Source of the DNA: Actinomycetes bacterium
Lineage (GTDB): Bacteria > Actinomycetota > Thermoleophilia > BMS3ABIN01
Assembly (NCBI GenBank): GCA_021790115.1
Contig: JAJYIM010000011.1
Span: 1-48,380, forward strand
Direction: 5' to 3'
DNA length: 48,380 bases
Part shown: positions 39,490 through 41,793 of the stretch, one piece after another
Layout of the letters: every line of letters starts with the position of its first letter
Numbering within the stretch: position 1 is the stretch's first letter
Notes under the pieces: generated by a model
The model's database searches: none
What the model saw: only the letters and a program-made list of their open reading frames with translations
What the model was told of the DNA's origin: nothing
Translations under genes and position numbers: made by a program

Positions 39490-40665
39490 TTGAAAAAGAC
39501 CGTCAAGGACATAGACGTTGACAACAAGCGCGTCCTTGTCCGGGTAGATTTCAATGTGCCCCTTAAGGGCGGACGTGTTGCTGATGACACCAGAATCAGG
39601 GCGTCGCTGCCGACGATAAATTTTCTGCGCAAGCACAACGCGCGCGTTATTCTCATCTCTCATCTGGGACGTCCCAAGGGATTGGAAAAAAACCTGTGCA
39701 TGGATCCGGTGGCGGACCGCCTCTCCGGCCTCCTGGAGGCTCCGGTAATGAAGCTGGATGACTGCGCCGGCCCCGATGTGGAGTCCCGCCTGGCCGGGCT
39801 GAAGCCAGGTGAGGTTGCAGTACTGGAAAACAGCCGTTTTTTCCCTGGCGAGAAACAAAATGATCCCAAATGGGCAGAAAACCTGGCCAGGCTTGCCGAC
39901 ATCTACGTCAACGACGCATTCGGCACCATCCACCGCGCTCATGCATCCACTGCCGGTGTGGCGGCATATTTGCCCGCCGTCGCCGGCCTTCTGGTGGAAA
40001 GTGAGCTTAAGCAGCTCTCGCGCCTGATAAACAATCCCGAGCACCCGTTCGTTATCATCCTTGGCGGAGTCAAGGTTTCCGATAAGGTAGGGGTCATCAG
40101 CCGCTTTCTGGGTTTCGCCGACGTCATTCTTGTTGGCGGCGCCATGTGCTTTTGTTTCCTGAAGGCAGAAGGGGTTGACACTGGCGCCTCCAAAGTGGAG
40201 GAAGAGGCCGTTGGCGCTGCCGCGGCGGCCTTGGAAAAGGCGAAAGGGTCAAAGTGCCGCATCCTGTTGCCGGCCGATTTAGTTGTAGCCGGCCGCTTCG
40301 ACGCCGCCGCTGAGACGATGGTAGTGGCGGCGGACCGGATCCCCTCAGGCTGGATGGGTCTTGACATCGGTCCTGCCACGGTCACCGCCTTCACTGCTGA
40401 GATCGGGGCTGCCCACACTATTTTTTGGAATGGCCCCATGGGCGCATTTGAAATGGAGCCGTTCGCCGCCGGCACACGCGCGGTTGCCGAGGCTGTGGCC
40501 TCTGCCGGCGCCCTCACAGTCACCGGCGGCGGCGACACCGTGGCGGCGGTGAATCAATTTGGGGTGGCCGGCCTGATTGACCACGTCTCCACCGGCGGCG
40601 GCGCCGCGATGGAATTTCTGGAAGGGAAGGAGCTGCCCGGTATCTCGGTGCTCGCCGACAAGTGA
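39490..40665 (+). CDS. pgk: phosphoglycerate kinase
   Basis: A 391-residue enzyme producing ATP from 1,3-bisphosphoglycerate. The N-terminal substrate domain has RVLVRVDFNVPLKGG (14-28) and LISHLGRPKG; the middle has NDAFGTIHRAHAST; the C-terminal nucleotide domain has FWNGPMGAFE and GGGDTVAAVNQFG. It starts with TTG. No tpiA follows, though it does in many actinobacteria; instead a MITE-like element and the candidate RNA come next. Confidence 0.96.
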   Translation: MKKTVKDIDVDNKRVLVRVDFNVPLKGGRVADDTRIRASLPTINFLRKHNARVILISHLGRPKGLEKNLCMDPVADRLSGLLEAPVMKLDDCAGPDVESRLAGLKPGEVAVLENSRFFPGEKQNDPKWAENLARLADIYVNDAFGTIHRAHASTAGVAAYLPAVAGLLVESELKQLSRLINNPEHPFVIILGGVKVSDKVGVISRFLGFADVILVGGAMCFCFLKAEGVDTGASKVEEEAVGAAAAALEKAKGSKCRILLPADLVVAGRFDAAAETMVVAADRIPSGWMGLDIGPATVTAFTAEIGAAHTIFWNGPMGAFEMEPFAAGTRAVAEAVASAGALTVTGGGDTVAAVNQFGVAGLIDHVSTGGGAAMEFLEGKELPGISVLADK

Positions 40666-40670
40666 GGATT

Positions 40671-40739
40671 AAAAATCTATCTCAAGGCACTATCTCAAGG
40701 CATATTCTGCTGCGAACAGCCTTTTGAGATAGATTCTAA
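40671..40739 (-). mobile_element. short MITE-like element with partial duplication of one end
   Basis: The left end contains CTATCTCAAGGCA twice in tandem, then ATATTCTGCTGCGAACAGCC and CTTTTGAGATAGATTCTAA. It is otherwise like the copy at 20036. Confidence 0.8.
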
Positions 40740-40795
40740 CAACTTTTGTTAATGGATCTCGTCTGATCGATCACAAATTGTAATAGGCTACCCCT

Positions 40796-40824
40796 TTTAA
40801 TTTTTACGAAAAGTGGTATATAGT
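40796..40824 (+). promoter_or_regulatory. promoter candidate for the structured RNA
   Basis: TATAGT (40819-40824) as -10 with TTTTAA (40796-40801) 17 bp upstream as a weak -35. Transcription would start near 40831, just before the closing stem of the RNA. Confidence 0.45.
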
Positions 40825-40830
40825 TATAAG

Positions 40831-40976
40831 CAGCCCCAAGGAGTCGGAAAGGCCTATTGGAGGTCAACGCGAAAGCGTTAAGTCGAGGAAATGCGGAACC
40901 AAAAAAGCCGCAAAGTCCGATGAAACTTAACGAAAGCGAAAACCAGGGATAATAGGCAGTGAAGGTTCCTTGGGGT
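40831..40976 (+). ncRNA. candidate structured non-coding RNA (~145 nt), class unknown
   Basis: The ends form a perfect 9-bp stem: CCCCAAGGA (40834-40842) with TCCTTGGGG (40967-40975). Inside, GCCTATT (40852-40858) pairs with AATAGGC (40951-40957). A GAAA-capped hairpin AACGC/GCGTT is at 40866-40879, and TGCGG/CCGCA forms a hairpin at 40892-40912. TCGGA (40844-40848) can also pair with TCCGA (40916-40920), which would make a pseudoknot, and GGAACC (40895-40900) can pair with GGTTCC (40964-40969), competing with the outer stem. The remaining single strands are A-rich. A promoter precedes it and a T-rich tract follows. It does not match tmRNA, RNase P, SRP RNA or the common riboswitches as I know them. 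Confidence 0.65.
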
Positions 40977-40998
40977 TTCTCTTGCCTCTTTTTAGCTG
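40967..40998 (+). terminator. T-rich tract after the structured RNA
   Basis: The 3' strand of the closing stem is followed by TTTCTC and, after TTGCC, TCTTTTT. Together with the stem this could end transcription of the RNA. Confidence 0.45.
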
Positions 40999-41144
40999 TT
41001 GCCGGGTGTCCTCTGTTTTTCCCGGGCGCGCTTTCGGTGCGGGAAGCCGCTGGTCATCCCTGATTCCCGGTTTTCACCCCAGCTAATTGCCTTTCATGTT
41101 GTCACTCTTCTTTTTCTGACATACAATCCTGGAGTCATATCCTT

Positions 41145-41329
41145 TTAGAATCTATCTTAAAAGGCAGTTCGTAGCGAGGCCGAGCGAAAAGGCGATGGGC
41201 AAGGACGCAGGAGTAAAAAGCCCGCAGTCGTACCCGCTGCGGTACGTCGAGGACTTTTTGCTCCGAGGACGCCGCCCATCGCCCTTGCAGCCGGCCGCAA
41301 CAGAATATGCCTTTTGAGATAGATTCTTA
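41145..41329 (+). mobile_element. long MITE-like palindromic element (reference copy)
   Basis: About 185 bp. Ends AGAATCTATCTTAAAAGGC and GCCTTTTGAGATAGATTCT; nested inner inverted parts GGCGATGGGC/GCCCATCGCC and GTACC/GGTAC around CGCTGC. TA lies outside both ends. It has no coding capacity, so a transposase would act in trans. The same plan occurs at 28901 and, in reverse, at 48237. Confidence 0.87.
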
Positions 41330-41395
41330 GCTGCACCGGAAACTATAGCCCCTATTCGCTCCCTGCCAATGTTGAGGTGGGTTTGGGTTTGATTT

Positions 41396-41424: not shown

Positions 41425-41793
41425 TTACGTCGGCTCTTCTTCCTCGGTCTGGGTCATTACGAAGCCGGTGTCCGGCTCCTCCACCCTGGCTCTCTTTCCG
41501 TAGACCTTTGCCTCCAGCACCGCAATGCGGCGCCCCAGGTCATCAACATGTGTGCGGCCGGCAATGCCCATCGCCCGCAGCGTATCCTGGTAGGCGTCGG
41601 AGAAACGGCCCGCCACCTGGGAACCCTCTCTTTCGGCGCTTGCCACCGCTTGATCAACAATTTTCTGGCCCTCTTCCCTGGTTAGCTGGCCCCGCTTGAC
41701 CATCTCATCCACCAGCTCGTTAATTTTCTCCCTGGTCAGGGACGCCGCGCCAATTCCCAACAGCAGTATTTTTTCTATCAAGCTCTCGGCCAT
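41425..41793 (-). CDS. phasin-family/granule-associated-like coiled-coil protein
   Basis: A 122-residue helical protein. Residues 4-17 are hydrophobic (SLIEKILLLGIGAA), followed by the EF-like segments REKINELVDEMVKRGQLTRE and EGQKIVDQAVASAERE that are typical of the PhaF/PhaI phasin type. A coiled coil (LGRRIAVLEAKVYG) precedes an acidic tail. Phasins coat polyhydroxyalkanoate granules, but many homologues occur without such granules and are stress-related. The ribosome binding site AAAGGAGGAG is strong. It is the last gene of the array down from acuC, 24 bp after otsA. Confidence 0.75.
   Translation of the reverse strand: MAESLIEKILLLGIGAASLTREKINELVDEMVKRGQLTREEGQKIVDQAVASAEREGSQVAGRFSDAYQDTLRAMGIAGRTHVDDLGRRIAVLEAKVYGKRARVEEPDTGFVMTQTEEEEPT

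Follow-up and report, generated by a model that had tools for sequence, protein, structure and literature searches.

Directly 3' of the gene for phosphoglycerate kinase (pgk) in a member of the Thermoleophilia (GenBank assembly GCA_021790115.1, contig JAJYIM010000011.1, of which the whole analysed stretch of 48,380 nucleotides is called the window here), a preliminary description made from the letters alone had proposed a compact, strongly folded RNA of unknown class with its own promoter. The questions raised by this locus are whether an RNA gene is present there, to which family of RNAs it belongs, and whether it acts upon a neighbouring gene or in trans.

The RNA1 locus and its distribution

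The gene, which we will refer to as RNA1, occupies positions 40830-40978 of the window on the (+) strand and is about 145-150 nt long. Its upstream neighbour pgk (39490..40665, + strand) matches the Pfam PGK model with an E-value of 1e-147, and the next gene on its 3' side, which encodes a phasin-like protein (41425-41793), lies on the opposite (-) strand. No open reading frame of at least 60 amino acids is found within 40666-41376, in agreement with the earlier description of this region as free of protein genes.

By blastn, RNA1 is present in a single copy in its own genome and has matches in other members of its family, where full-length homologues were identified in 14 of the 19 genomes. 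A covariance model (R1) built from these 14 homologues matches the window at 40829-40978 (+) with a score of 138.6 bits and an E-value of 2e-30; the window copy is part of the training set, and the E-values from all covariance models built in this analysis are rough. In the same class, this model also finds related copies (E <=1e-11) in a second family, where 18 genomes have up to six copies each; it finds none in the other listed families. In two samples of the phylum, consisting of 296 and 396 genomes, the matches were confined to these two families, plus three weak relatives that are described in the last section. The named genome records containing the exact core pattern are Thermoleophilia/Actinomycetota metagenome-assembled genomes (MAGs), and nearly all of the genomes that were searched are likewise MAGs. 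A phage or plasmid origin was also considered, but RNA1 matched none of the 50,697 phage records and none of the 72,556 plasmid records searched, and its exact pattern matched no viral contig. Pattern matches in Xanthomonas dyei (L079) and in a MAG of the Eubacteriales (L077) are both missed by R1 and were taken to be due to chance.

Upstream of the outer helix of the predicted structure (P1, see below), the window contains a -10 box, TATATA (40817..40822, + strand; context GGGTATAAT), with no clear -35 element. In the aligned upstream regions of all 14 family homologues, an GGGTATAAT-like -10 box is present at a constant distance of about 8-12 nt 5' of P1, and the copies from the second family carry TTGACA..TACAAT/TAGAAT at the -10/-35 position 5' of P1. 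Directly 3' of P1 there is a T-rich tail, TTTCTCTTGCCTCTTTTT (40976..40995, + strand), which is a possible intrinsic terminator; such tails follow P1 in most homologues and that of the window copy is modest. Both the -10 box and the T-rich tail noted in the preliminary description are therefore present, and with the box kept in the homologues the transcription of RNA1 from its own promoter, also claimed there, is predicted. As the window copy has no clear -35 element and only a modest T tail, we infer its expression from its relatives. The fixed genomic positions of RNA1, together with the maintained -10/P1 spacing and T tails, argue for a free-standing gene, the transcript of which would both start and end at P1.

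Predicted structure of RNA1

The minimum free energy (MFE) of RNA1 is -56.0 kcal/mol, compared to -33.8 +/- 3.6 kcal/mol for 200 dinucleotide shuffles, none of which was as low (z -6.1), and the strong folding claimed earlier is thus borne out. The consensus helices, whose pairing probabilities are 0.88-1.00 when the window sequence is considered alone, form an unbranched rod consisting of P1 (13-15 bp), P2, P3, P4, an internal loop, and P5 with an A-rich loop. These helices were compared in an alignment of the 14 family homologues (A1), an alignment of the second family (A3), and joint alignments of 35 and 42 rows.

The 5' strand of P1, GCCCCAAGGAGTC (40833..40845; this and the strands below are all on the + strand), which is near-invariant in sequence and common to the paralogous RNAs described later, pairs with GGTTCCTTGGGGT (40964..40976). 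In the window P1 contains nine Watson-Crick pairs (40834-40842/40967-40975), which is the 9-bp closing stem reported previously, and it extends to 13 pairs (40833-40845/40964-40976) when G-U pairs are counted. P2 corresponds to the 7-bp inner stem of the same report and joins GCCTATT (40852..40858) to AATAGGC (40951..40957), with both-side changes in three of its seven pairs in A1 and in all five of five in the second-family alignment. In P3 (40862..40870 with 40936..40944), the MFE structure pairs GGT (40862-40864) with ACC (40942-40944) and CGC (40868-40870) with GCG (40936-40938); the outer part covaries in A1. P4 is formed by CGTTAAGT (40876..40883) and ACTTAACG (40925..40932), and the P5 hairpin, TGCGG-AACCAAAAAAG-CCGCA (40892..40912), is paired in 100% of the cells of A1.

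Of the two hairpins noted in the preliminary description, both sequences are present, but the GAAA-capped one (AACGC-GAAA-GCGTT, 40866..40879, + strand) is not conserved and is mutually exclusive with the conserved P4: at least five contiguous pairs of P4 are formed in 30 of 35 homologues, whereas any local hairpin of at least five pairs occurs in 10 of the 35. Similarly, the 6-bp alternative pairing, in competition with the closing stem (GGAACC, 40895-40900, with GGTTCC, 40964-40969), is found in the window, but it is complete in only 4 of the 14 family homologues and the switching role suggested for it is not supported. A tiny ORF with a ribosome-binding site (GGAGG-AA-ATG-CGG-NNN-TAA), seen in many homologues, was also considered. 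As its spacing is too short, its ATGCGG is changed to AAACGG in L006 and L007 with compensation across P5 (AACGG/CCGTT), and the window copy has no early stop, the ATG is assigned to P5 and this candidate was rejected. A kink-turn next to P1 was likewise set aside, as by eye the purine-rich loop there misfits the consensus.

Between P4 and P5, the strands AGGAAA (40886..40891, +) and AAGTCC (40913..40918, +; AGTAC in nearly all relatives) face each other in an internal loop of the sarcin-ricin/loop E type. A GGAA/GAAA strand is present in all 42 rows of alignment A6 and RGUAY faces it in 39 of them, and the G-C pair expected to close such a loop is invariant in the family. The arrangement of GGAA facing AGUAC next to P5 matches the known consensus for the bulged-G (sarcin-ricin, loop E) module, this being a match of sequence and not a solved structure. 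The bulged-G motif is a generic structural module and not an RNA family, and it occurs here as a two-strand internal loop, with AGUCC in the window copy. A search of the open literature for this loop motif yielded no paper. The window copy is the sole one of the 42 aligned that has AGUCC (C for A), nearly all others having AGUAC; this copy may be subject to drift, or a plain G-C pair may form at this place.

Conservation and covariation

In alignment A1, standard pairs are formed in 96.0% of the cells, as compared to 33-53% when the partners are slid by 1-3 columns, and both sides have changed in 17 of the 36 pairs. For the second family, where the structure was predicted on its own alignment, the corresponding values are 97.5% versus 35-50%, with both-side changes in 17 of 33 pairs. 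In the joint alignment the structures of the two families coincide column by column, and the same rod is obtained independently from each of them. Covariation was assessed by our own R-scape-like test, which is simpler than R-scape and is based on an APC-corrected G statistic and a null preserving the tree and the substitutions. The z of the mean score of the structure pairs against this null was 9.0 (A1), 11.7 (A3), 15.8 (joint, 35 rows), and 13.7 (joint, 42 rows). The individually significant pairs (E <=0.05) were few and all within the structure; the per-pair test is underpowered within single families, where it gave no significant pair in A1 and one in A3. P4 pairs in up to four orientations, and three pairs reach E <=0.01 against the tree-preserving null. 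Of the pairs that never vary in A1, seven (of 15) belong to P1, none (of 16) to P2-P4, and two (of five) to P5; other P1 pairs covary. The stems are thus kept in the homologues of RNA1 and in our test they covary beyond the tree-preserving null, and RNA1 shows what is expected of a structured noncoding RNA gene, viz. a conserved structure with compensatory changes beyond phylogeny.

These results also bear on the suggestion that the locus is a transcribed but functionless inverted repeat, e.g. a part of mobile palindromic elements. RNA1 is indeed flanked by palindromic, MITE-like repeats at about 40669-40739 and 41144-41329 with CCTTTTGAGATAGATT ends. Repeats of this kind also lie elsewhere in the window, in which their end sequence is matched 13 times versus 0.04 expected. 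However, RNA1 is in single copy by blastn, occurs at the same place in the relatives, and covaries. This explanation, which is refuted by the covariation and synteny, is hardly credible.

Paralogous RNAs sharing the P1 helix

Sequence comparison indicates that RNA1 is a member of a set of paralogous RNAs with a common outer stem P1, a relationship overlooked in the preliminary description. Its own genome, where RNA1 is on contig C6, contains at least two further P1-sharing genes, RNA3 and RNA4, and another type, RNA2, is a tandem copy located about 100-250 nt 3' of RNA1 in nine family loci (L005-L008, L010-L012, L014, and L015). RNA2 (e.g. L010:1818-1972) has a TTGCC..TAGAAT promoter and a branched interior. 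RNA3 is found in its own genome at C37:17963-18100 (L176:1501-1638, on the (-) strand in L176), beside a UPF0182 gene. It is convergent with this gene in the 12 loci compared, near murJ (the other loci being L118, L121-L123, L125, L129, L130, L169, L170, L173, and L174), and its promoters are TAAA..CGATA-like, presumably resembling sigma-28/WhiG sites. RNA4, also of the P1 type, is located at C3:36781-36898 (L133:1501-1618, on the (-) strand in L133). In all of its 11 loci (the others are L136-L142, L148, L152, and L153) it is 200-350 nt 5' of a DAHP synthase gene. In several genomes it has an extra hairpin 5' of P1, and in L152 nothing more than a short hairpin is enclosed by P1. The same P1 closes the RNA2, RNA3, and RNA4 types and their interiors differ. 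P5 and the bulged-G loop are common to RNA1-RNA3, whereas what RNA4 has in common with these is mainly P1, together with the purine loop (GGA/GAAGG) located above it, and hence P1 is the common denominator of the set.

Comparison with known RNA families

A search of the window against Rfam 15 at gathering scores gave no match, including to tmRNA, RNase P, SRP, riboswitches, OLE, ROOL, and GOLLD. At E-values up to 10, the region 40660-41360 has just two chance matches to eukaryotic families, both outside of RNA1, and in the relatives' copies Rfam likewise gave nothing on the RNA. The assignment of RNA1 to an unknown class in the preliminary description agrees with these searches, but its suggestion of a raiA-type kinship does not. 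Like RNA1, the raiA motif RNA (ModT) is a structured bacterial RNA from a free-standing gene with a promoter, its function is unclear, and it occurs in the same phylum. However, its model (RF03072; 209 positions, gathering threshold 101.3 bits) has pseudoknots and a different sequence, and it gave no match in the region at E-values up to 10 and none in the genome. RF03072 was found in 75 of the 198 phylum genomes searched and in none of the Thermoleophilia class genomes. As the search succeeds in so many genomes of the phylum, its absence from this class is informative, and the sequences look unrelated. In open papers we found nothing on noncoding RNAs of Thermoleophilia, where unpublished or subscription-only descriptions could exist. 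As judged by Rfam 15 and the open papers, nothing tested places RNA1 in a known family, and it is new at the level of RNA family.

Two types of known RNAs resemble RNA1 and its paralogues in their overall plan. The first is 6S RNA, which is also rod-shaped (150-190 nt) and encoded by a free-standing gene. The canonical 6S RNA of this genome is a separate gene (G000:C58:3328-3484; L131), and 6S was present in all 20 relatives searched, in 18 of them above the Rfam cut-off. An identity of RNA1 with 6S (RF00013) was rejected, as this covariance model has no match in the window and the genome's own 6S is located elsewhere. A broader proposal would be that RNA1 binds RNA polymerase in the manner of 6S or Ms1 RNA, as a rod that mimics promoter DNA and belongs to a paralogous set with different promoters. 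The similar size of the rod is in keeping with this, as are the several paralogues per genome with sigma-A-type (RNA1, RNA2) and sigma-28/WhiG-like (RNA3) promoters. However, as a canonical 6S already exists, RNA1 has no match to RF00013 or to another Rfam family, and it lacks a single large bubble and contains several small internal loops, such a role seems quite improbable.

The second type is the Y RNAs, which are bound by the Ro (TROVE) protein by means of a conserved outer stem. They share with the RNA1 set the constant terminal stem, the variable interior, and the presence of several paralogues. In contrast to the Y RNAs, the RNA1 set occurs where the TROVE protein (PF05731) is absent: it was found in none of the 19 family genomes, a control search being positive in Deinobacterium, and no Y RNA of Rfam was matched. 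It is accordingly very improbable that these RNAs are Y RNAs bound by Ro.

Gene neighbourhoods and cis or trans action

RNA1 adjoins pgk in 7 of the 14 family loci, including the window, and in 12 of the 14 a gene for an AMIN-like lipoprotein is located 3' of it in the same direction. The window has lost this neighbour and has palindromic repeats in its place. In the second family the neighbours vary (an alpha/beta-hydrolase gene, mutM, a histidine kinase gene, a transporter, and others) and they are often convergent with the RNA, mutM being an example of a next gene that is converged upon.

The AMIN-like gene suggests that RNA1 could act in cis on the downstream gene, as a leader or attenuator in which P1 is the terminator, and it is in line with this that RNA2 ends about 40 nt 5' of the AMIN-like ORF in L010 and L014 and that RNA4 precedes the DAHP synthase gene in its 11 loci. 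However, the next gene in the window is on the other strand, and, as the neighbours in the second family vary and are often convergent, a common cis target is unlikely. The competing GGAACC/GGTTCC pairing that was tested is not conserved. A leader or riboswitch is expected at a constant place 5' of one type of gene on the same strand, and RNA1 does not have such a placement. We consider this explanation unlikely for RNA1, and a cis role is possible for some copies, viz. those with the AMIN-like gene 3' in the same direction and RNA4. Trans action is favored by the opposite-strand gene next to RNA1 in the window and by the convergent orientation of many second-family copies and of RNA3 relative to their neighbours.

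One form of trans action would be that of a base-pairing small RNA, regulating mRNAs by antisense pairing through its unpaired purine-rich segments. The free-standing gene, promoter, and terminator-like tail would suit such an RNA, and one of the purine-rich segments contains GGAGG. However, the conserved unpaired stretches are located in internal loops of the bulged-G type between covarying helices, unlike typical open seeds, and we regard this mode of action as improbable.

Proposed function and significance

From the gene, its structure, conservation, signals, and paralogy, all obtained here by computation, we infer a partner, its binding, and an activity as follows. As the most likely explanation, with somewhat less than even confidence, we propose that RNA1 is a noncoding RNA from a free-standing gene, about 145-150 nt in length, which would be transcribed from its own sigma-A-type promoter and act in trans, docked through P1. 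The sequence of P1 is nearly fixed, which suggests an additional constraint such as recognition by a protein, as would be usual for such helices. The near-invariant P1, common to RNAs with different interiors, would then be the place at which a single partner, most probably a protein, docks on all of them, and the interior (P4, the bulged-G loop, and P5) would give each RNA its specific activity. The paralogous RNAs might compete for, titrate, or guide this shared partner, and their different promoters may determine which RNA is present under which condition. The conservation of P1 could alternatively result from its dual role as the initially transcribed region and the stem of the terminator. 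A common function of the paralogues is an assumption of this proposal, as their interiors differ considerably.

Free-standing structured RNAs that are kept across bacterial families are rarely dispensable, and RNA1 is such an RNA without a catalogued family, in a host class that is a deep and mostly uncultured actinobacterial lineage. If P1 is a docking site, the paralogous set would provide a direct route to the RNA-binding partner, and, if true, it would add an example from bacteria in which a single constant stem is used by several RNAs with different promoters. By analogy with Ro and the Y RNAs, these RNAs might even represent a new class of ribonucleoprotein RNAs, a counterpart of the Ro-Y system without Ro, in which paralogous noncoding RNAs with interchangeable interiors, under different sigma factors, would dock a shared protein through a constant, sequence-specific P1; we hold this wider reading to be possible and rather doubtful.

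The class so conceived might extend to other actinobacterial lineages. The three weak matches of R1 outside the two families, L052:1501-1678 (-), L053:1501-1676, and L054:1501-1677, have E-values of 0.0015-0.008 and are from two other families of the phylum. None of them matches Rfam. Each is a rod of about 177 nt, richer in AT, which shares P1 (GTCCCAAGAAG..CTTCTTGGGAC) and has a TTGACA promoter and a T tail, and the three resemble one another across families.
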